From contig JADYYH010000004.1 in assembly GCA_020853775.1 (NCBI GenBank), positions 1 to 64,000 on the forward strand: a DNA stretch of 64,000 nt. The letters run 5' to 3'. The notes under the pieces are model-generated. The model saw nothing but the letters and a program-made list of their open reading frames with translations. It had not been told where the DNA came from and ran no database searches. Positions 1,061 to 10,192 of this stretch are shown in pieces; positions within the stretch are counted from its first letter, which is position 1, and each line of letters starts with the position of its first letter. Origin of the DNA: Nitrospira sp. (lineage in GTDB: Bacteria; Nitrospirota; Nitrospiria; Nitrospirales; Nitrospiraceae). Position numbers and translations under genes: made by a program.

Positions 1061-2530
1061 ATGGATCTTGATCGCGCGAATCACATCGTGTTAGTTGCAG
1101 ACTGGAACAGGGCTCGTCTTGAGCGCATCAGAGAGGTGTTTCGCTCTTCTTACCGCGTCGAGCCGGTTTCTAGGTGCGATCGGATCCTTCCCACGGTCCA
1201 TCGCCTGGCTCCCTCGGTCGTGATTTTCCCGCTCCGCTGGCGTCACGTTGCCGACGCCTGCTCTTCGGAAGTGTGCTTGGGGGATCGAGTCCTTGACGCG
1301 GTGATCGGACTCCCTCAGCCGCCGCTGGCGGTCGCCTTCGCCGAGTCTGCTCAATATCTTCCGCTGCCGGAATACTGTTCGCCCTTTGCCAAAGGTGCCA
1401 CCGCGCTGTTGGACGAATCCGATCCGAGGTTCTATCAGGAGTTACGAACCAAGGTCATCACCGGTCTGAAGCGGATCGGAGAAAGCGATAGAAGGGCGCA
1501 TTGTGTTCCCGCACTCCTCGCTTTGGCGGGATCGAGTCCCGCGATACACGGCATACGAGACCAAGTACTGAAGGCAGCCAAACTCAGTGACGCTCCGGTG
1601 TTGATTACCGGCGAGTCAGGAACCGGCAAAGAAGTCGTGGCGATGGCCATCCATCGTTTGGATGAGACACGCGCAAAGGGCCCCTTCATTGCCGTCAATT
1701 GCAGCGCCGTTTCGAGTTCGCTGGCTGAAAGCGAATTCTTCGGCCATAAGCGCGGCGCGTTTACGGACGCCAATTCTGATCGTCAAGGGTATTTTCGAGC
1801 CGCCCACGGCGGAGTCCTCTTTCTCGATGAGATCAGTGAACTCGATCAGAGTTTGCAACCCAAGTTGCTCCGTGCGCTTCAGGAACGATCCGTTCGTCCG
1901 GTCGGAGAGGAAAAGGAGCAGACAATCGATATCCGGATCATCGCGGCCAGCAATAAAGATTTGCCGGCGGAGGTTGCGCGCGGCGCGTTTCGTATGGATC
2001 TCTACCAGAGGCTCGACGTCCTGTCGGTGCGTCTACCGCCCCTGAGGGCGCGTAAGGAGGACATTGAACCGCTGGTGCGGTTTTTCGTGAAGAAACACGC
2101 CTCTTGCTACGCGGGAGTGATTCAAGCGATCGATTCACGAGTGCTCGAACTCCTCACGACGCTCGACTACGAGGGCAACGTTCGGGAATTAGAAAACCTC
2201 GTTCGAAAGATCCTGTTCCATAAAGAGACAGGCGACACCATTGCCATGGCGGATCTTCCCTCGGAGATTGTCGCCCGCATGTGCGACGGTCATCTCTCTG
2301 ATAGCCTGGAGATCTTCGCTGACGCGCTTCTTGAGAAGGTCAAGCAGGGATTGTCGTGCACTGAGGCACTCGCGGAGTGTGAGCGGCTCTTGCTCGCACG
2401 AGCGATGCAAGAAAGTCACGGCTCTCGCTCGAAGATGGCCGCCATTCTCAAGCTGTCCCCGCGCACCCTCTTCAACAGACTCCGAGCCCGTGGATTACTT
2501 GCCCCTACGCAGCAGCTCGAGCAGCATTAA
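1061..2530 (+). CDS. Sigma-54-dependent transcriptional activator, NtrC family, with degenerate receiver
   Basis: The 489-residue protein has three parts. Residues 8-140 resemble a receiver fold but lack the phospho-acceptor Asp: the expected position reads PSVVIFPLRW. Residues about 158-390 form the AAA+ domain, with Walker A GESGTGKE (184-191), GAFTDA in place of the usual GAFTGA sigma-54 contact loop (232-237), Walker B GVLFLDEI (251-258), and arginine-finger/sensor segments later. The C-terminal 45 residues form a Fis-type helix-turn-helix (SRSKMAAILKLSPRTLFNRL). I chose ATG 1061; a GTG at 1001 in frame would add 20 unrelated residues. It lies upstream of, and in the same direction as, the Fap-like locus and is its most obvious candidate activator. 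Without the Asp, control is probably not by phosphotransfer. Confidence 0.9.
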   Translation: MDLDRANHIVLVADWNRARLERIREVFRSSYRVEPVSRCDRILPTVHRLAPSVVIFPLRWRHVADACSSEVCLGDRVLDAVIGLPQPPLAVAFAESAQYLPLPEYCSPFAKGATALLDESDPRFYQELRTKVITGLKRIGESDRRAHCVPALLALAGSSPAIHGIRDQVLKAAKLSDAPVLITGESGTGKEVVAMAIHRLDETRAKGPFIAVNCSAVSSSLAESEFFGHKRGAFTDANSDRQGYFRAAHGGVLFLDEISELDQSLQPKLLRALQERSVRPVGEEKEQTIDIRIIAASNKDLPAEVARGAFRMDLYQRLDVLSVRLPPLRARKEDIEPLVRFFVKKHASCYAGVIQAIDSRVLELLTTLDYEGNVRELENLVRKILFHKETGDTIAMADLPSEIVARMCDGHLSDSLEIFADALLEKVKQGLSCTEALAECERLLLARAMQESHGSRSKMAAILKLSPRTLFNRLRARGLLAPTQQLEQH

Positions 2531-3077
2531 CCTCAATCCGAAAAGAATTCCCCGGTCGAGGTCCGTCGCGGCGGGCGAGTAAGAAATTCGCGCGATCGCC
2601 GTACCACCCGCTGCGGCGCGCGCCCAAGTCGATGGGATGATTTTCGGATCGGGGCTAAACATCGGCAACGTTTTTCCTGCGACTGCTCCTGTCGCTCCGT
2701 AACGATACTGATCTGCAAAGACAAAGACTTAAGGAAATATCACGAGCACCACGCTGGGTGGAGCCGGAAAAATGTTTCTTCCTGTTCCGCTCGTCACAAC
2801 AGAATGAAAGAGCGTAACTCTATACAAAATCTTAGATTTTTTTGCCCGTATTTTCCTGTAGCACTGGTACGAAAGATGTAAGAGCAAGGGGCAGAAGTGT
2901 TTCTAGATTTCGTAGGCGTGAGGCGCATAGCTCCAAACAGCAGCGCCATGGGGCTCGCATTGGCAACCATACTATCTACGAGACAACGAGCCATGTGGAA
3001 GGAGGTGACGCGTCTGCCTTATGAGCGCTCAGCTGTCTCAACCGCGATTCGTTTTTAACCGCTAGGAGGAGGATGTC
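2531..3077 (+). promoter_or_regulatory. Long regulatory leader upstream of the Fap-like locus
   Basis: This 547-base gap holds no convincing protein gene and is AT-richer than its surroundings in the middle part. Visible signals are an imperfect dyad CACCACGCTGGGTG (2747-2760), a weak sigma-54-like element (2864-2880), an anti-SD-like AAGGAGGTGA (2999-3008) followed by a 14-codon frame (ATG 3021 to TAG 3065), and the strong Shine-Dalgarno AGGAGGAGG at 3064-3072 serving the ATG at 3078. A dyad about 110 bases upstream of a sigma-54 element is the geometry of an enhancer-dependent promoter, but each element alone is imperfect. Confidence 0.4.
2864..2880 (+). promoter_or_regulatory. Weak candidate sigma-54 promoter for the Fap-like locus
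   Basis: CTGGTACGAAAGATGTA matches the -24 part of the sigma-54 consensus well (TGGTACGA against TGGCACGR). The -12 part reads ATGTA rather than TTGCA, so the conserved GC is GT. Spacing is correct. Start of transcription would be near 2891, leaving a leader of about 190 bases. The presence of an NtrC-type activator gene immediately upstream makes it worth listing despite the poor -12 element. Confidence 0.25.
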
Positions 3078-4094
3078 ATGAAGAAAGTGACGATGACGAC
3101 AGCAGCCTTGGCGTTGGCCTTTGGCCTGTCACCTATCGCAGGAGCCCAAACAGTCGACAACGGCAGCGCCGCGGCATCGGATCATTCTAAGGCTGCGGTA
3201 AAGACCAATAACAGCACGAATGACAGCTATAACGAGAAGACGATCAACGTCGATAAGACCATTACTAAAACGAATACCGACTCCAATAACGATGGAAAAG
3301 CAAAAGCGTCCGGACCCTTTGGGGCGGCGGCCAACAACCACTCGACGGCCAGCACTTCGTTGAGCTTGGCCTTGACCAACGCCTTTAACAAAAGCTCCGT
3401 GGTCAATGTCACCAAACTCGATGGATATGTGTCCGGTAACAGAATCAGCCACATCGGCAATTACGGAGGCGACGCCTACGCGAAAAGCAATGGCGGCCCT
3501 GGCGGCGATGGCGGCTACGCCACAGCCAAAGCCCGATCCGGTGATGCCTATGGTGGCGACGGTGGCAGAGGTGGCTATGCCAAGGCCAATGGCGGCTATG
3601 CCGACGGTGGCAAGGGTGGTTATGCCGACGGCGGCAAGGGTGGCTATGCGGCCGGCGGTGCTGGCGGTAGTTCTAATGGCAACAATGGCGGCCAATCCAA
3701 TGGCGGCGACAACTATAACAACACCGCCCGCGATGCTGAATGGACAGGCGGCCACGGCGGGTATGCCCAAGGTGGCAACGGTGGCCAGGCCCAGGGTGGA
3801 AACGGTGGTCAGGCAACCGGTGGGAATGGTGGTACGGCAACCGGTGGGCGTGGCGGCGATGGCGGCTACGCGTCCAGCGGCTACGCGGACGCGCATGCCG
3901 ATGGTGGAAACGGTGGAAGGGGCGGCAGAGGAGGGGACGCGTACGGCGGAAGCGCGGGAACCTTCAATGCCTCGAACACGCTCTCCGGGTTGAGCGGCGC
4001 CGCCGGCGTGACCGTCGCCATTCAGAACACGGGGATGGCGAGCCTCCAGCAGGTGGGTGTCACCACAATGGCGAATGTCACGGTCGGTCGCTAA
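3078..4094 (+). CDS. Secreted Gly/Asn-rich repeat protein, candidate fibre subunit of a Fap-like system
   Basis: The 338-residue protein starts with a Sec signal peptide (cleavage likely after IAGA, residue 23). An Asn/Thr/Lys/Ser-rich segment follows to about 75, then a short hydrophobic-polar segment, and from about 130 to 300 a glycine-rich region of GGxGG units. These include tandem 9-residue GGYADGGKG-type copies and 8-residue GGNGGQAQ-type copies. The last 26 residues (313-338) carry an IQN...LQQ...N.T motif shared with the two small proteins downstream. The Shine-Dalgarno AGGAGGAGG is unusually strong, as expected for an abundant structural protein. It lacks the GVNxAAG-type repeats of Pseudomonas FapC, so orthology is not claimed; composition recalls polyglycine-II proteins such as PE_PGRS. 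Confidence 0.75.
   Translation: MKKVTMTTAALALAFGLSPIAGAQTVDNGSAAASDHSKAAVKTNNSTNDSYNEKTINVDKTITKTNTDSNNDGKAKASGPFGAAANNHSTASTSLSLALTNAFNKSSVVNVTKLDGYVSGNRISHIGNYGGDAYAKSNGGPGGDGGYATAKARSGDAYGGDGGRGGYAKANGGYADGGKGGYADGGKGGYAAGGAGGSSNGNNGGQSNGGDNYNNTARDAEWTGGHGGYAQGGNGGQAQGGNGGQATGGNGGTATGGRGGDGGYASSGYADAHADGGNGGRGGRGGDAYGGSAGTFNASNTLSGLSGAAGVTVAIQNTGMASLQQVGVTTMANVTVGR
3591..3850 (+). repeat. In-frame tandem repeats coding GGxGG units
   Basis: Two blocks of short direct repeats lie inside the Gly-rich gene. About 3591-3660 repeats a 27-base unit (GGYADGGKG and variants) and about 3766-3850 repeats a 24-base unit (GGNGGQAQ, GGNGGQAT, GGNGGTAT). Copies differ mostly at third codon positions, which points to selection on the protein rather than very recent slippage. 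Copy number could vary between strains. Confidence 0.75.
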
Positions 4095-4138
4095 GCAGGA
4101 TCCGGCTGGAGGAGCAGCCGCTCCTCCAGCTCTCCTGC
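4095..4138 (+). promoter_or_regulatory. Intercistronic hairpin after the Gly-rich gene
   Basis: Immediately after the stop codon an 11-bp perfect stem, GCTGGAGGAGC (4105-4115) with GCTCCTCCAGC (4120-4130), closes a four-base AGCC loop. It is extended by GCAGGA (4095-4100) pairing with TCCTGC (4133-4138). No U-run follows, so a classic terminator is unlikely. A stable hairpin in this place commonly protects the upstream message from 3' exonucleases and lowers downstream expression, which would favour the repeat protein over the accessory proteins. Confidence 0.65.
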
Positions 4139-4163
4139 CCCATTCATGATCAGAGAGGGCGCC

Positions 4164-4508
4164 ATGCGTATCTTCCTATCAATAGTGGTGAGTGTCCTGG
4201 GGCTCTGCTTGGGCACAGCTCACGCCGGCCCGCCGGACACGACGCCGGTGAGCTCCTGGGGCCATCCAGTTCCGTCGGCCCAGTTGGACGCTCAACGTGG
4301 CGGAATGGATCCCGGCCCGGTCACGATCAATGCCAACATGCTGAACGCCAAGCTGTTCGACAATTCCGCCACAGGCAACGTGACCGGAAATAATACTGTG
4401 ACCGGCGGCGCATTCGCCGGAGCGAGCGGGCTTGCGACCGTCATCCAAAATTCAGGCAACAATGTGATCATTCAGAACGGCACCGTGCTGAACTTAACCT
4501 TGCAGTAG
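4164..4508 (+). CDS. Small exported protein with double-glycine motif and QN-rich C-terminus (Fap-like accessory)
   Basis: The 114-residue protein has a signal peptide ending near residue 21 (AHA), then the segment VPSAQLDAQRGG with Gly-Gly at 46-47, resembling the double-glycine sites cut by C39 peptidases. The remainder is Asn/Thr/Gly-rich and ends in IQNSGNNVIIQNGTVLNLTL (92-114), the motif shared with the Gly-rich protein and with the product of 5207-5716. ATG 4164 is preferred over 4146 because GAGAGGG lies just upstream. The next gene, a C39 peptidase, begins 6 bases after the stop. I infer an exported, peptidase-processed minor component or nucleator of the fibre. Confidence 0.7.
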   Translation: MRIFLSIVVSVLGLCLGTAHAGPPDTTPVSSWGHPVPSAQLDAQRGGMDPGPVTINANMLNAKLFDNSATGNVTGNNTVTGGAFAGASGLATVIQNSGNNVIIQNGTVLNLTLQ

Positions 4509-4514
4509 CACTCC

Positions 4515-5207
4515 ATGCCGACGAAACATGCGATAGGGTTTGTGATCGCCGTGATGCTGTCTGCCGCTTCCGGCACGATGGCGGCCACGGTCGAGGTCAC
4601 TCCGGGGGTCGGAAGTCGCATGTTGCTTCAGGTCTGGAGCATGCGCGAGCTCAAGCTCCGGTCTGTCATCCTCCAAAAATATGATTTCAGCTGCGGCTCG
4701 GCCGCCATCGCCACGCTCTTGACCTACCACTATGGAAATCCCATGACGGAAGAAGTGGCGTTCCGGACGATGTTCGAGCACGGCGATCAAGAAAAAATCC
4801 AGCGCGAAGGATTTTCGCTCTTAGATATGAAACGGTTTTTGGACGCGCAGGGCTATCGCGCAGATGGGTTTGAGGTTTCTTTGGACGACCTCTCGAATGC
4901 CGGCATTCCTGCGATCGTGCTGATGGTGGATAACGGGTATTACCATTTTGTGGTGGTCAAAGGCATGCGGGACAATAAGCTGTTGCTCGGCGATCCCGCA
5001 GTCGGACTGCGGGTGGTGTCGCGCGGGGAATTCGAAGCCGCCTGGCCGAATCGTATTGTGTTCGTCATCCATGACGCTCCGACACGCGGGGCATTCAATA
5101 CCGCCCGCGATTGGAGCGTCCGTCCGAGATCGCCCCTTGGACAACCGGTCGGGGCAGACACATTGAACAGTATTCTGCTGTTCCGACCAGGACGGAGTGA
5201 TTTCTAA
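4515..5207 (+). CDS. Exported C39-family cysteine peptidase, FapD-like
   Basis: The 230-residue protein has a signal peptide (to about residue 24) and then a single C39 domain. Visible catalytic elements are the oxyanion Gln54 and nucleophile Cys60 in QKYDFSCGSAA, His144 in YYHFVVV and Asp160 in LLLGDPAVG. No ABC-transporter or membrane domain follows, so this is a stand-alone periplasmic enzyme like FapD of Pseudomonas Fap operons rather than a bacteriocin exporter. It is sandwiched between two genes for double-glycine proteins and shares a TAATG stop/start overlap with the second (5207), implying translational coupling. Its likely role is trimming the neighbouring proteins after Sec export. 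Confidence 0.88.
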   Translation: MPTKHAIGFVIAVMLSAASGTMAATVEVTPGVGSRMLLQVWSMRELKLRSVILQKYDFSCGSAAIATLLTYHYGNPMTEEVAFRTMFEHGDQEKIQREGFSLLDMKRFLDAQGYRADGFEVSLDDLSNAGIPAIVLMVDNGYYHFVVVKGMRDNKLLLGDPAVGLRVVSRGEFEAAWPNRIVFVIHDAPTRGAFNTARDWSVRPRSPLGQPVGADTLNSILLFRPGRSDF

Positions 5208-5716
5208 TGATTCCCTGTGTGATCGCGAGTCGTCACATGACTGCCGGTCTGATGGGGGCGCTCCTCTGCATGGCGGGTATGGCTCCAGCCATGGCACTCG
5301 AAGCCGGGGAAGACTTTGCGCAGCGGCCACCGGTGAGCGAAGCGGTATTGGACCAGATGCGAGGGGGATTTCAAAGCAGCCCGAACAGTCCCGTCCTGGC
5401 ATTCGGCATCGAGCGGAATGTGTTGGTCAATGGCAAACTCGTCAGTTCCACGGTGCTGACGATCCCCAGCTTATCCCAGCTTGCCGGTAATACGAGCGAC
5501 GCCTTCAAGCTCATCCAAACCGGCGGCGGCAATGCGGTGCTCCCCGGCATGTCTTCGTTGTCACCCTTTATGACCGTCATGCAAAACTCTCTCGACAATC
5601 AAACCATTCAGCAGCAAACCGTCATGAACGCCACAGTGGCCGCGCTCGGTTGGGCCCGATCGCTCGCACTCGGCAACGCGCTGACTCAGGCCACCATGGG
5701 TACGATCCGGCATTAA
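5207..5716 (+). CDS. Exported double-glycine protein with QN-rich motif (Fap-like accessory)
   Basis: The 169-residue protein starts within the stop codon of the C39 gene (TAATG). It has a signal peptide ending near AMA (residue 30). Residues 43-54, VSEAVLDQMRGG, form a textbook double-glycine leader (L at -7, M at -4, G at -2 and -1). The mature part is Ser/Asn-rich and contains MQNSLDNQTIQQQTVMNATV (about 124-144), matching the C-terminal motif of the other two exported proteins, with 25 further residues after it. I infer a substrate of the adjacent peptidase and a minor subunit, chaperone or nucleator (FapA/FapE-like in position, not shown to be homologous). Confidence 0.7.
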   Translation: MIPCVIASRHMTAGLMGALLCMAGMAPAMALEAGEDFAQRPPVSEAVLDQMRGGFQSSPNSPVLAFGIERNVLVNGKLVSSTVLTIPSLSQLAGNTSDAFKLIQTGGGNAVLPGMSSLSPFMTVMQNSLDNQTIQQQTVMNATVAALGWARSLALGNALTQATMGTIRH

Positions 5717-6179
5717 ACATGAATCGCCCACAGCAGCCGATGCCGGTAGATGGCGGTCGTCGCATCAAGCCCTCCTACTCGAACATACATGTCTAGCAGG
5801 CTGCGGAACAACTCGATTATTGCGTCATGCGTCGCGTTTCGCACAGGGGCCGTCTCGCGTCAGAATAACCCACAGGATGCGCAAAAAGGCTGTCCAGCAA
5901 GGCCGCAGCGAACGAAGAGGCGAATCGTACTCGTGCCGTACGGTGAGCCTCTGAGTGATGCGAGAACGCCGCTGGCGGACGTTTTCCGCATCCTGCTAGG
6001 GGCGCTGCACAACGTCGTGATCATCGATCGCGTGGTTCGGTCACAGACATGGTGCGTCTATTTCGTCCACGTGGAAGATGATGACCACTCTTGTCTCGAC
6101 GTCGGTCTATTTCTAAGCCGCACCCTCTCGCAACGCAATCACGCAATATTGACAGCACAACCAGCACCGGAGGCCCGGG
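5717..6179. other. Intergenic region occupied mostly by a repeat element
   Basis: This 463-base gap separates the small-protein gene from the channel gene. About 207 bases are the palindromic repeat (5793-5999). The remainder (6000-6179) has no recognisable gene. A TTGACA at about 6149 is the only promoter-like hexamer noticed, and it lacks a matching -10 element. The ribosome binding site GGAGG for the next gene lies near 6169-6173. Confidence 0.5.
5793..5999. repeat. 207-bp palindromic repeat element with terminal inverted repeats (MITE- or REP-like)
   Basis: The element starts with CTAGCAGGCTGCGGAA (5793-5808) and ends with TTCCGCATCCTGCTAG (5984-5999), terminal inverted repeats of 16 bases with one mismatch. 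Inside, GAGGC (5917-5921) and GCCTC (5947-5951) close a further hairpin with CGTAC/GTACG. It encodes no transposase. The terminal AGCAGGCTGC and a central GTAC-containing hairpin also occur in the element at 31340-31461, so the window contains at least two members of one family. It may have separated a once continuous Fap-like operon. Confidence 0.75.
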
Positions 6180-7481
6180 ATGTGCCATATAAATCGATAC
6201 GGCCAGGGACAATCCATCAACCTGTCGAATAATCCAGGACGATCTCGTCACATCTTTTGGACGGCGTTCTGTATGTGGCTGACATTCATGCTCATGGGGT
6301 CCGAGATTGGTGCGGCCCAGCGTGGGATCGTTGAGAGTTACGCGGAACAGTTGGAAGTCCACAAGTCGGTACACGTTCGACGGCCGAAAGCACGACGGCC
6401 ACCCAACACATCGCAATATCTCGTCGCAAGCGACCAGCCTTATGGACCGCAGCGCTCTGAGCGGGATGCGCCCGCCGCACAAGACGCCTCCGCGCAAGGC
6501 GTGACCACCGGCAGCCCCGTGGGGGTGGCGCCGGAGAGCCCACAAGAAAAGCCTCTTCCTCCATGGATGGCTCGGACATTTGATTTGCCCGGGGCCGGCG
6601 TGTTGACGCCCAAAGGCACCTTGATCGTGGAGCCGTATCTGCAATATGCCCATCTCAGCAGCAATCGAGTGACGCTGACCGGTTTTACCATTGTCCCGGC
6701 CCTGACGATTGGTCTCATCAACATCCAAGGTGTGAGCCGGGACATTTATACCGCCGCATTGGTCGGGCGTTACGGATTGACGAATCGACTGGAGGTCGAG
6801 ATGAGGGTGCCCTATCTGTATCGGGAGGATTCGATTACGCAACGACCTCTTGCCACGCCATCTACGGCTGATACCGTCTCGACCGCCAACGGGTCTGGTC
6901 TCGGAGACGTTGAAGCAACGGGCCGGTATCAAATCAACAAAGGTGGGCCCGACGAACCGTATTTCGTGGCGTTCACGCGATTTAAGAGCACGACCGGGAA
7001 AGGCCCGTTCGAAGTCCCTATAAACCCGATTACGGGGTTCCAAACAGAATTGCCGACGGGGTCTGGTTTTTACATTCTCCAACCGGGCTTTACCGCCCTC
7101 TTTCCCAGCGATCCCGCGGTGCTGTTCGGTAGTATCAGTTACATTTGGAATATGTCGCGTAATGTAGGCGGGCAGATCGGGCGGATCGATCCTGGAAGTG
7201 GGGCCAATGTGAATTTAGGCCTCGGCATTTCGCTGAATGAAAAATTGTTTTTGACTCTGGGGTATGACCATACCGTTTTTGAGAGGCCGACTTCTGCATC
7301 GAACCTGCTCCTCACGACCACGCCGCAGGTCACTCAAATCGGGGTCTTGCTCATTGGAGGGGCGTATCGCTTGAACGATCGCAGCTTTGTGAATTTCGTC
7401 GTCGGAGTCGGCGCGACACGGGAAGCACCGGATCTCCAAGTGACGGTCCGCATTCCGACGGCAGTCCTTATCGGGAATTAG
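6180..7481 (+). CDS. FapF-like outer-membrane beta-barrel protein (putative fibre secretion channel)
   Basis: The 433-residue protein has a hydrophobic export signal around residues 24-46, then a low-complexity Pro/Ala/Ser linker to about 125, and a barrel domain opening with the block FDLPGAGVLTPKGTLIVEPY. Later blocks RYGLTNRLEVEMRVPYLYR, GLGDVEATGRYQ, TGKGPFEV, ELPTGSGFYILQPGFT, PSDPAVLFGSISYIWN and IGRIDPGSG are, to my recollection, hallmarks of the FapF/transporter family of barrels. It lacks an obvious N-terminal coiled coil. ATG 6180 has GGAGG about 7 bases upstream. The gene follows the C39 and double-glycine genes in the same direction, as FapF follows FapD/E in Pseudomonas, but after a repeat insertion. 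Confidence 0.8.
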   Translation: MCHINRYGQGQSINLSNNPGRSRHIFWTAFCMWLTFMLMGSEIGAAQRGIVESYAEQLEVHKSVHVRRPKARRPPNTSQYLVASDQPYGPQRSERDAPAAQDASAQGVTTGSPVGVAPESPQEKPLPPWMARTFDLPGAGVLTPKGTLIVEPYLQYAHLSSNRVTLTGFTIVPALTIGLINIQGVSRDIYTAALVGRYGLTNRLEVEMRVPYLYREDSITQRPLATPSTADTVSTANGSGLGDVEATGRYQINKGGPDEPYFVAFTRFKSTTGKGPFEVPINPITGFQTELPTGSGFYILQPGFTALFPSDPAVLFGSISYIWNMSRNVGGQIGRIDPGSGANVNLGLGISLNEKLFLTLGYDHTVFERPTSASNLLLTTTPQVTQIGVLLIGGAYRLNDRSFVNFVVGVGATREAPDLQVTVRIPTAVLIGN

Positions 7482-7547
7482 TGTGAGCCGCCTTTGAACG
7501 TGGTCATCCGCGATGACGCGCGGGGGGATCAATCTGAGGGGCTTCGC

Positions 7548-7583
7548 AAAGGGAGTTCCGCTGTATGGTGCGGAACTCCCTTT
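7548..7583. terminator. Bidirectional intrinsic terminator
   Basis: AAAGGGAGTTCCGC (7548-7561) pairs perfectly with GCGGAACTCCCTTT (7570-7583) around an 8-base loop. It lies 66 bases after the channel gene and 23 bases after the stop of the minus-strand gene at 7607-7909. The A/T-rich stem ends supply short U-tracts in both directions, so it can serve both convergent genes. Confidence 0.8.
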
Positions 7584-7606
7584 ATCGAACCGGAGTCATG
7601 CGACGG

Positions 7607-7909
7607 TTATTTGCCCAAGGGATTGGTCAACGCGCCCTTGGCACCTTCCTTGATTCCTTTGACGTCTTCTTTCACCTGCCCTGCGCCCTGCTTCGTTTTT
7701 TCGAGGTCTAATTTCTTGGCGTCTTCTTTTGTTTGAGTCGCATCGGTTTTGAGTTTGCCGGTGGCTTCTGTTAACGACTTGCCCGTGCCTTTCATCGCTT
7801 CTTTCCCTTCCGCGACCAGGCCATCGGCATGGGCTGATGGCAGCGACGCAACGGAGCTTGCTCCGAGACCGGCGGCGACGGCGATAGCGACGATCAATGA
7901 CTTCTGCAT
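7607..7909 (-). CDS. Small exported Lys/Glu/Gly-rich helical protein, function unknown
   Basis: The 100-residue protein has a clear signal peptide (MQKSLIVAIAVAAGLGASS to AHA, about residue 29). It is followed by an amphipathic, charged sequence rich in Lys, Glu, Asp, Thr and Gly (KGTGKSLTEATGKLKTDATQ and similar 11-residue-like phrases), reminiscent of LEA-like or stress-associated periplasmic proteins. ATG 7909 is preferred to an upstream in-frame start because GGAGG lies directly before it. I do not recognise a named family. Confidence 0.7.
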   Translation of the reverse strand: MQKSLIVAIAVAAGLGASSVASLPSAHADGLVAEGKEAMKGTGKSLTEATGKLKTDATQTKEDAKKLDLEKTKQGAGQVKEDVKGIKEGAKGALTNPLGK

Positions 7910-8359
7910 GATGAGCCTCCTTGGTGAGTGGCACCATTCGCTGCATGGGGATGAGGGCGCTGGCACATGGCCAGCTTGTCTGAGCCAATGCCATGCTCCC
8001 GTACGGCACTATAGCAGGATAACTTGCTTCATTGTGTGCTGATTCAGTGAGTCGAAAGGTTATGCAGCGTTCGACAGTGGGGTGGGTTGTGAGAGGGTAC
8101 CCATTCATCGGCTGGTTCGAATGAACTCGAGGTGACCAAAAATTCTGGCTATCTCGAAGATGCTCTTGCGTAGTGGCCGTATCCGTTTCGCTTGCTGTTT
8201 GATTTCAGGACCGAGAGCAAGATGAAATCTGCCGCCGATATGAATTAGAGTGCTGTTCCCATACATTATTGACAGAACGGTGTGGTGATTTTTGGAAAGG
8301 GAACGGGTATTCTCTATCGAAAACAGGCCCAGCTTCTATTCGATATTAAGTGTGCGGTT
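7910..8359. other. Intergenic region bordering the restriction-modification island
   Basis: No gene is supported in this 450-base stretch. Base composition becomes visibly AT-richer from about 8130, which probably marks the left edge of the acquired island. No direct repeats or tRNA-like target were noticed at the edge. CTGGCACATGGCCAG (7960-7974) is a short palindrome with sigma-54-like spacing but no gene follows in a suitable position. Confidence 0.45.
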
Positions 8360-8776
8360 ATGACAGATCATGTCTCTCCCAAGAAGCGGAGCGCCATTAT
8401 GGCGCGAGTCGGGACTAGAAACACCGGCCCGGAATTGGTTGCACGAAAGATGCTGCATCGGCTTGGTTACCGATACCGTCTACATCGAAAAGACCTGCCA
8501 GGCTCTCCAGACATCGTTTTCCCACGAACCAGGTTAGCAATCTTCGTCAATGGCTGTTTTTGGCATGGTCACGCTTGCCGGTATGGTCGATTGCCAAAGA
8601 GTAAGTTGCGATACTGGCGTCCTAAAATCGAAGCAAATCGAATGCGGGATGTATCAAAGCACAGGCAGTTACGTCAACGAGGTTGGAGTTTTCTCGTTGT
8701 ATGGCAGTGTGAGTTGAGAAAACCAGAGGCTGCACTCAAGAAAATGGTTGAGTTCCTCAATAAATGGCATCGGTAA
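8360..8776 (+). CDS. vsr: Very short patch repair endonuclease Vsr
   Basis: The 138-residue enzyme nicks next to T in T:G mismatches that arise when 5-methylcytosine deaminates. Family motifs are visible in order: SAIMARVGTRNTGPE, then HRKDLPGSPDIVFPRTRLAIF with the catalytic Asp, and the zinc/active-site block VNGCFWHGHAC. Length matches the family. ATG 8360 starts the conserved region directly; an in-frame start at 8282 adds unrelated residues. It precedes a C5 cytosine methyltransferase in the same direction, the usual genetic partner, and lies in AT-richer DNA than its flanks. Confidence 0.93.
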   Translation: MTDHVSPKKRSAIMARVGTRNTGPELVARKMLHRLGYRYRLHRKDLPGSPDIVFPRTRLAIFVNGCFWHGHACRYGRLPKSKLRYWRPKIEANRMRDVSKHRQLRQRGWSFLVVWQCELRKPEAALKKMVEFLNKWHR

Positions 8777-8848
8777 TTTTGGGGTCGGGGTCTTTTCGAC
8801 GTGGCAAGGGGTTTGATGCCCAAGCAGATCTAGTCGAGCAAGGAACGA

Positions 8849-10192
8849 ATGATACAAAGGCCAATAGGAATAGACCTGTTTTCTGGGGCTGGTGGGCTTA
8901 GTCTTGGCTTCGAACAAGCTGGATTCGATGTCGTCGCCGCCGTAGAGATCGATCCTATACATGCAGCGATTCATAAGTTCAATTTCCCAGAATGCACTGT
9001 CATTCCTAGGACCGTGATCGGATTGTCGGGGCAAGATATTAGGAAGATTGCCAATATTCGGGACAGATCGGTGGAGGTAGTTTTCGGTGGTGCCCCGTGT
9101 CAAGGCTTCTCGCTCATGGGGCAGCGAGTGCTTGACGATCCACGTAATGCTCTGGTTCGAGAGTTTGTTCGAATCGTCAGGGAGCTTGATGCGTCGTACT
9201 TTGTTTTTGAAAACGTTAAAGGCTTAACGGTTGGTAAGCACAAACGGTTCCTTGATGAGTTGATCGGAGCTTTCCGGACTGTGGGCTACAGGGTGCAATT
9301 ACCTTGGAGAGTCTTGAATGCCAGCTGCTATGGGGTGCCTCAAGATCGTGAACGGCTGTTTCTCCTCGGTGCGAAAGTGGGGTTACCGTTGCCAGACTAC
9401 CCATGTCCTACGACAAGGCCGGTCAGTTCAAAGTTGAACTTGTTTAATTTGCCGCAAGGACCTTCCTGCAGAGATGCTCTTGGAGACCTGCCAGATGTAG
9501 AAAAGTTTCCTCAACTTTTTGAAGACGATTGCGTGCTTACTGATAGGTGGATGGTCCCGAGCGAGTATGCAATGGAATTGCGCTGTGCGCAGTCCAGTGC
9601 ATGGCACTATGGTTACAGAAGACGTTGGCAACCGAATTTACTAACGTCGAGTATGCGCACCGTTCATACCGAAATATCGCGAAGGCGTTTTGCTGAAACC
9701 GGGCTTGGGGAAGTTGAGCCTATTTCTCGGTTTTTTAAGTTGGCGGGTGACGGAATTTCTAATACCCTTCGTGCCGGTACCGATTCTGCCAGAGGAGCGT
9801 TTACCAGCCCGCGACCTATTCATTATAAGTATGCTAGGTGCATAACGGTCCGAGAGATGGCGCGTCTGCACGGTTTTCCCGATTGGTTTAGATTCCACCA
9901 AAGAAAGTGGCATGGGGCCAGACAGATCGGAAATGCGGTTCCCCCGCCGGTGGGAAGAGCAATCGCAATTGAGATCCGAAAAATCTTGAGAGGTAAGCCT
10001 TTCAGGCCTATTCGGACCCTTGAACTCGGCGATCCCGCGTTGCTGCGAATGGGCATGATTCAGGCCTCCGAATATTGGGGCATTAAAGTGCCTATAGCTC
10101 GTCGCGACCGCAGGAGTGGGGTTAAGAAGCGAACGCAAGCGGAAATAGAAGCGGTACGCCTTGGTACTGTTGGAGCTCAAATATATGGCTAA
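8849..10192 (+). CDS. DNA (cytosine-5-)-methyltransferase of a type II system
   Basis: The 447-residue enzyme transfers a methyl group from S-adenosylmethionine to C5 of cytosine. Motif I DLFSGAGG (9-16), motif IV GAPCQGFS with catalytic Cys84 (81-88), motif VI ENV (121-123), motif VIII (VPQDRERLFLLG), a variable target-recognition region and motif X GNAVPPPVG near residue 370 are in canonical order. Roughly 70 residues beyond motif X form an unusual C-terminal tail. The last 8 bases overlap the start of the endonuclease gene, so the two are translationally coupled. The recognition sequence cannot be read from the protein. Confidence 0.95.
   Translation: MIQRPIGIDLFSGAGGLSLGFEQAGFDVVAAVEIDPIHAAIHKFNFPECTVIPRTVIGLSGQDIRKIANIRDRSVEVVFGGAPCQGFSLMGQRVLDDPRNALVREFVRIVRELDASYFVFENVKGLTVGKHKRFLDELIGAFRTVGYRVQLPWRVLNASCYGVPQDRERLFLLGAKVGLPLPDYPCPTTRPVSSKLNLFNLPQGPSCRDALGDLPDVEKFPQLFEDDCVLTDRWMVPSEYAMELRCAQSSAWHYGYRRRWQPNLLTSSMRTVHTEISRRRFAETGLGEVEPISRFFKLAGDGISNTLRAGTDSARGAFTSPRPIHYKYARCITVREMARLHGFPDWFRFHQRKWHGARQIGNAVPPPVGRAIAIEIRKILRGKPFRPIRTLELGDPALLRMGMIQASEYWGIKVPIARRDRRSGVKKRTQAEIEAVRLGTVGAQIYG

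Follow-up and report, generated by a model that had tools for sequence, protein, structure and literature searches.

A five-gene operon with a Fap-type peptidase and barrel

The DNA considered here is a window of 64,000 nt of the Nitrospira sp. contig JADYYH010000004.1, to whose positions coordinates refer unless another locus is named, and the system in question is an operon of five co-directional open reading frames (ORFs), P1 to P5, at 3078-7481 on the plus strand, in which a peptidase and an outer membrane barrel of the families known from Fap operons are encoded together with three further exported proteins. An earlier note on this DNA had pointed to five exported proteins encoded in one direction, with a glycine-rich repeat protein and with a stand-alone C39 peptidase between two double-glycine proteins, and this description holds: the ORFs were recovered at the same positions and each begins, by inspection, with a hydrophobic signal-like stretch. 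Only 6 bp lie between P2 and P3, the last base of P3 is also the first of P4, and 463 bp separate P4 from P5.

The first gene, P1 (3078-4094), encodes an exported protein of 338 aa without a double-glycine leader, whose residues 129-296 (3462-3965) are 40% glycine, with a glycine autocorrelation that is strongest at lag 8, and which ends in a C-terminal glutamine/asparagine (QN) motif, GLSGAAGVTVAIQNTGMASLQQVGVTTMANVTVGR (3981-4091). P2 (4164-4508) is a small exported protein of 114 aa if read from the ATG at 4164, or of 120 aa from the ATG at 4146, and combines a double-glycine leader motif, VPSAQLDAQRGG (4269-4304), with a C-terminal QN motif. P3 (4515-5207, 230 aa) is the exported peptidase with the catalytic residues Cys60, His144 and Asp160. 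P4 (5207-5716, 169 aa) again carries a double-glycine leader, PVSEAVLDQMRGG (5330-5368), and a C-terminal QN motif, and P5 (6180-7481, 433 aa) is the barrel protein, with its barrel domain at about 6582-7466. P2 and P4 contain one LDxxRGG motif each, and conservation among homologues predicts cleavage after GG in both.

P3 passes the Pfam cut-off for C39 peptidases (2e-21), and in NCBIfam it comes closest to FapD (6.6e-40), then to the FilB of Acinetobacter (4e-35), both below the curated cut-offs; the equivalog cut-off for FapD is 330 bits, below which the FapD of Aeromonas also falls. Comparison with FapD by hhalign gives 100% (E 4.9e-48), and Cys60, His144, Asp160 and Gln54 are invariant in 91 of 91 homologues. 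P5 matches NCBIfam FapF (8.3e-32) and FilC (2e-11), again below both curated cut-offs, aligns with FapF at 100% (hhalign, E 1.5e-53), and 32 of the 32 aligned members of the barrel family match FapF. The AlphaFold model of P5, with a predicted local distance difference test score (pLDDT) of 69 overall and higher values in the barrel, finds its best structural counterpart in FapF (5O65; Z 28.9, root-mean-square deviation 2.2 Å, 272 residues), followed by the COG4313 channel 4RL8 (Z 25.0). The profile searches proposed in the earlier note thus assign the barrel to the FapF family and the peptidase to that of FapD. Proteobacterial barrels start with a Gln-containing, helical-looking stretch that by eye resembles the FapF coiled coil.

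Distribution of the operon

A species-level scan with one genome per species found 143 loci, of which the best 80 were taken; the counts over 85 loci given here omit one duplicate and the distant FapD/FapF-like pairs. The order P1-P2-C39-P4 is kept in 77 of the 85, from Nitrospira as well as Beta- and Gammaproteobacteria, that is, in related and unrelated genomes alike; all five genes stand in order on one strand in 53, the barrel is nearby on the opposite strand in 24, and several of the exceptions sit at contig ends. As it recurs in most of these loci and in two phyla, the arrangement exceeds chance, and the operon is widespread and not peculiar to one genome. Neither an unrelated barrel family nor a gene order confined to the source genome, both among the outcomes that the earlier note had named against its own interpretation, was found.

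Among 150 genomes around the source genome, a close C39 homologue occurs in five of the same genus, the source included, and in one of another genus of the same family; apart from that of the source itself, these homologues are 76-85% identical to P3 of the window. Outside Nitrospira the identity is 44-55%, and the best 80 of the 143 loci are mostly from Variovorax, Dyella, Luteibacter and Rhodanobacter. Plasmids of Alphaproteobacteria (Croceicoccus, Polymorphobacter) show the same order, with genes annotated as 'C39 family peptidase' and as 'transporter' or hypothetical protein. A variant of the operon lies on a Photobacterium megaplasmid (L130:3420-7879), with two P1-like genes that are not glycine-rich and a divergent barrel. 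Another family of the order contributes more distant FapD/FapF-like pairs among the 150 genomes; in three of these loci (L036, L038, L039) genes for exported proteins with leaders like ELDQVTAAG precede the pair, and this is a different FapD-type system, whose substrates may be cut after AG.

In the C39 tree the Nitrospira P3 sequences are monophyletic (100/100) and are placed among proteobacterial ones, a nesting which suggests that the Nitrospira operon may have been acquired by transfer from Proteobacteria.

The exported proteins form families of their own

A double-glycine leader is present in 84 of 86 P2 homologues (as L-x3-x-GG), in 83 of 84 P4 homologues and in none of the 81 P1 homologues found at the same place in 81 loci (alignment A2). 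What the P1 family keeps is the N-terminus and the C-terminal QN motif, while the middle is variable; the homologues contain about 20-34% glycine, and their middle is glycine-rich in nearly all members, the exceptions being Asp/Asn/Ser repeats in Croceicoccus and a glycine content of 7-12% in Photobacterium. The C-terminal motif, which in P2 reads roughly VIQNSGNNVLIQNATIhN, relates P1 to P2 (hhalign 94.6%, E 7e-8; reversed control 0.3%) and P4 to P2 (91.3%; reversed controls <1%).

P1, P2 and P4 of the window match no Pfam or NCBIfam family. At the level of the families, a Pfam scan of P1 and P2 gave nothing useful and no curlin repeat, an NCBIfam scan of P2 and P4 gave scattered chance-level matches only, and PDB sequence searches with the P4 profile and with P1 gave no match. 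The PE_PGRS proteins of mycobacteria are glycine-rich in composition with GGx runs. The term 'PGRS-like', used for P1 in the earlier note, is apt with regard to composition but not to homology, as P1 has neither a PE domain nor detectable homology in Pfam, NCBIfam or PDB, and the export route differs. The structure prediction that the note had proposed for the repeat protein alone yielded an AlphaFold model with a mean pLDDT of 40 and no fold.

Comparison with canonical Fap operons

The operon was compared with the canonical fap loci of Fulvimonas, of a metagenome-assembled genome (MAG) labelled Eremiobacteraeota, of six Dyella and of Aeromonas. FapB/FapC repeats were detected in P1 and P2 neither by NCBIfam nor by profile comparison, and with signal peptides trimmed, hhalign of P1/P2 against FapB/C did not exceed 6.4%. 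Hidden Markov models of the P1 and P2 C-termini scored no better against canonical FapA-F than against shuffled decoys, on which ground homology of P1/P2 to FapB/C was rejected. A FapA-like gene was not recognized between the regulator (see below) and P1, and P1, P2 and P4 gave at most 1% with FapA by hhalign; known Fap operons, too, deviate most often by the absence of fapA (PMC3792158).

P4 sits where FapE does in canonical operons, between fapD and fapF, and its leader stretch can be aligned with FapE (D..L..MRGRY..FGV) at 93.6% with signal peptides and at 51.9% once these are trimmed (hhalign; reversed about 1%). The NCBIfam scan of the P4 family gave no FapE match; the P4 of the Photobacterium locus weakly matches NCBIfam FapE (0.005).

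In the C39 tree the canonical FapD sequences form one clade (99/99) and the variant peptidases another (99/92), with FilB outside the latter on a long branch. Eight genomes, namely six Dyella, Fulvimonas and the MAG labelled Eremiobacteraeota, whose C39 groups with Dyella, carry both a recognizable fapABCDEF and the variant operon. The earlier note had proposed a Fap-related system whose main subunit had been replaced by the repeat protein; the subunits are indeed not canonical FapB/C, but the tree, with its separate lineages, gives no direction and hence does not support a replacement.

The operon shares with Pseudomonas Fap a FapD-family C39 peptidase followed by a protein in the E position and a FapF-family barrel, as well as exported proteins that contain Gln/Asn; fapA, which was not recognized here, is often missing in Fap too. 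Unlike Fap, it has P1 and P2 families of its own with one C-terminal motif, RGG instead of the RGR of FapE in the leader of the E-position protein, a second double-glycine protein, a sigma-54 promoter with activator, and a peptidase of a separate FapD clade that co-exists with canonical fap.

Regulation and neighbouring genes

In 69 of 74 proteobacterial loci, a -24/-12 site upstream of P1 reaches a score of 26 of 30 or more; in 66 of these it lies 55-110 bases before the start, and shuffled upstream sequences seldom reach such scores. Most Burkholderiales loci have a sigma-54 activator 3' of the barrel, within about 50 bases. In the window, a sigma-54-dependent transcriptional activator with AAA+ and Fis-type helix-turn-helix domains (1061-2530, plus strand; Pfam Sigma54_activat 1.3e-61, HTH_8) is the probable local regulator; L031 and L034, two further loci from Nitrospira, likewise have its orthologue upstream of P1 (E about 1e-226), and the activators beside the barrel in many Burkholderiales are more distant relatives. 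No convincing sigma-54 promoter was found upstream of P1 in Nitrospira, where the best sites score 22-23 of 30 in five loci and 27 at -557 in L035. Six of six Nitrospira loci (2990-3077 in the window; L031-L035) share a conserved block, gagccatgtggaaggaggtgacg, some 80-110 bases ahead of the start of P1. An Rfam scan of the window gave nothing above gathering, and a weak match 5' of P1 to HOTTIP_4, a long non-coding RNA family, was taken as chance.

Beyond the operon, a small ORF on the minus strand (7607-7912) opens with a signal-like stretch, contains charged helical repeats of Lys/Glu/Asp, KTKQGAGQVKEDVKG, and has no Pfam match. On the plus strand 3' of the operon (8282-10192), two ORFs by eye resemble a very-short-patch repair (Vsr) endonuclease and a C5 cytosine methyltransferase, and the ORF after them may be part of a restriction system.

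Discussion

While FapB/FapC subunits, a defining feature of Fap, were not detected, the variant operon probably works like Fap. The reading we favour, with good but by no means full confidence, is that of a Fap-like biogenesis system which exports P1, P2 and P4 into an amyloid-like polymer with a glycine-rich coat. Judged from their N-termini, P1, P2 and P4 would be taken across the inner membrane by the Sec route; once in the periplasm, P2 and P4 would lose their double-glycine leaders to the FapD-type P3, as the conserved motifs and catalytic residues imply, and P5, by homology with FapF, would pass the unfolded mature proteins through the outer membrane. Outside the cell, the C-terminal Gln/Asn motifs of P2, P4 and P1 may assemble into an amyloid-like polymer, of which P2 and P4 would be nucleating or capping parts and in which P1, the putative main subunit, would present its long glycine-rich segment, making up most of a surface coat or matrix. 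Expression would be sigma-54-controlled in Proteobacteria, where the promoter was found by comparison; in Nitrospira the activator gene is adjacent, but a promoter was not seen.

FapC secretion requires the catalytic Cys of FapD, a peptidase whose target is not known although FapE is suspected; no peptides were recovered from the first ~70 residues of FapE, and Fap proteins do not have canonical C39 sites (PMC5557850). The double-glycine motifs of P2 and P4 fit this model and extend it.

Several observations weigh against a Fap-like polymer. Secretion, cleavage and fibre formation are themselves predictions; P1 has no predicted fold; FapB/FapC repeats are not seen in P1 or P2; the P1 and P4 C-termini do not match directly (hhalign 0.7%) and are linked only via P2; and the link of P4 with FapE is no more than suggestive once signal peptides are trimmed (52%). 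By eye, the six Nitrospira barrels show no evident periplasmic coiled coil at the N-terminus, a part that every FapF homologue examined is reported to have and that is essential to the Pseudomonas protein (PMC6173795).

The alternative that survives best shares the export route with the Fap-like reading and differs in the role of P1: P2 and P4 would form the polymer, and P1 would be an accessory, for instance a surface-bound glycine-rich matrix or adhesive protein anchored by its C-terminal motif. We regard this as possible, if not favoured, since the peptidase leaders are confined to P2 and P4 and the highly variable centre of P1 is not glycine-rich in Croceicoccus and Photobacterium, yet the C-terminal motif is kept; on the other hand, P1 is the first gene, has the largest of the exported products and is missing from few loci, and FapC linkers are variable too (PMC3792158). 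That the operon is a canonical Fap operon with FapB and FapC diverged beyond recognition would agree with the common order of peptidase, E-position protein and barrel and with the strong divergence for which FapB/C are known (PMC3792158), but it is unlikely given the recognizable fapABCDEF beside the variant operon in eight genomes, the two well-supported FapD clades and the low profile scores of trimmed P1/P2 against FapB/C. Still less probable is a C39 bacteriocin or contact-dependent inhibition system, with P2 and P4 as double-glycine peptides matured and exported to kill neighbours: the leaders are canonical and accompanied by a C39 peptidase, and cell-surface glycine-zipper bacteriocins exist in Caulobacter according to a passage of PMC5380434, but P3, with its signal-like N-terminus, stands alone, neither an ABC transporter nor a candidate for immunity was noticed next to it, and P3 and P5 are relatives of FapD and FapF. 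A barrel for the uptake of hydrophobic compounds, merely adjoined by unrelated exported proteins, is hardly credible, as the resemblance of FapF-type barrels to COG4313 channels is surpassed by that of P5 to FapF, and in almost every locus the barrel comes with C39, P2 and P4.

The Fil system of Acinetobacter (FilB/FilC, NCBIfam NF050078/NF050079) likewise pairs a C39 peptidase with a FapF-like barrel, but P5 is further from FilC than from FapF, the matches of P3 and P5 to Fil are weaker than those to Fap and far below the curated cut-offs, and the Fil neighbours (FilA, FilF and others) differ. In the Acinetobacter baumannii locus inspected (L126), FilB is split over two ORFs (6775-7614, plus strand) and FilA starts with a leader-like MDDAALSAATGQ.

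A FapD/FapF pair outside Fap is not new, because the text on Fig. S1 of a 2018 review reports colocalized fapD and fapF homologues in five additional phyla (PMC6173800). Like the variant operon, these pairs join peptidase and barrel outside canonical Fap, and they may include it; the relevant passages of that review do not cover their substrates, leader motifs or regulation. Neither FapD nor FapF is mentioned in a review on the evolution of functional amyloids (PMC12520557). As the earlier note had supposed, the five-gene operon is apparently undescribed: the open-access literature yielded no description of the arrangement, the substrate families, the double-glycine leaders, the sigma-54 link or the co-existence with canonical fap. 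The shared C-terminal motif, the FapE-like leader of P4, the sigma-54 link and the wide distribution go beyond that note.

In our judgement the chances are even that FapD/FapF-type export here serves a second, widespread system for an extracellular polymer. Its subunits, without relation to FapB/C, would have only a C-terminal Gln/Asn motif in common and would place a long glycine-rich segment outside the cell under sigma-54 control, and its FapD-type peptidase would have clear double-glycine substrates. This sister system offers two candidate C39 substrates with near-invariant GG leaders; as they are encoded next to the peptidase and the leader of P4 can be aligned with FapE, the question of the FapD target becomes directly testable. 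If fibres form, the operon would amount to a second system for a matrix polymer, present in numerous genera of soil and rhizosphere as well as in nitrite-oxidizing Nitrospira.

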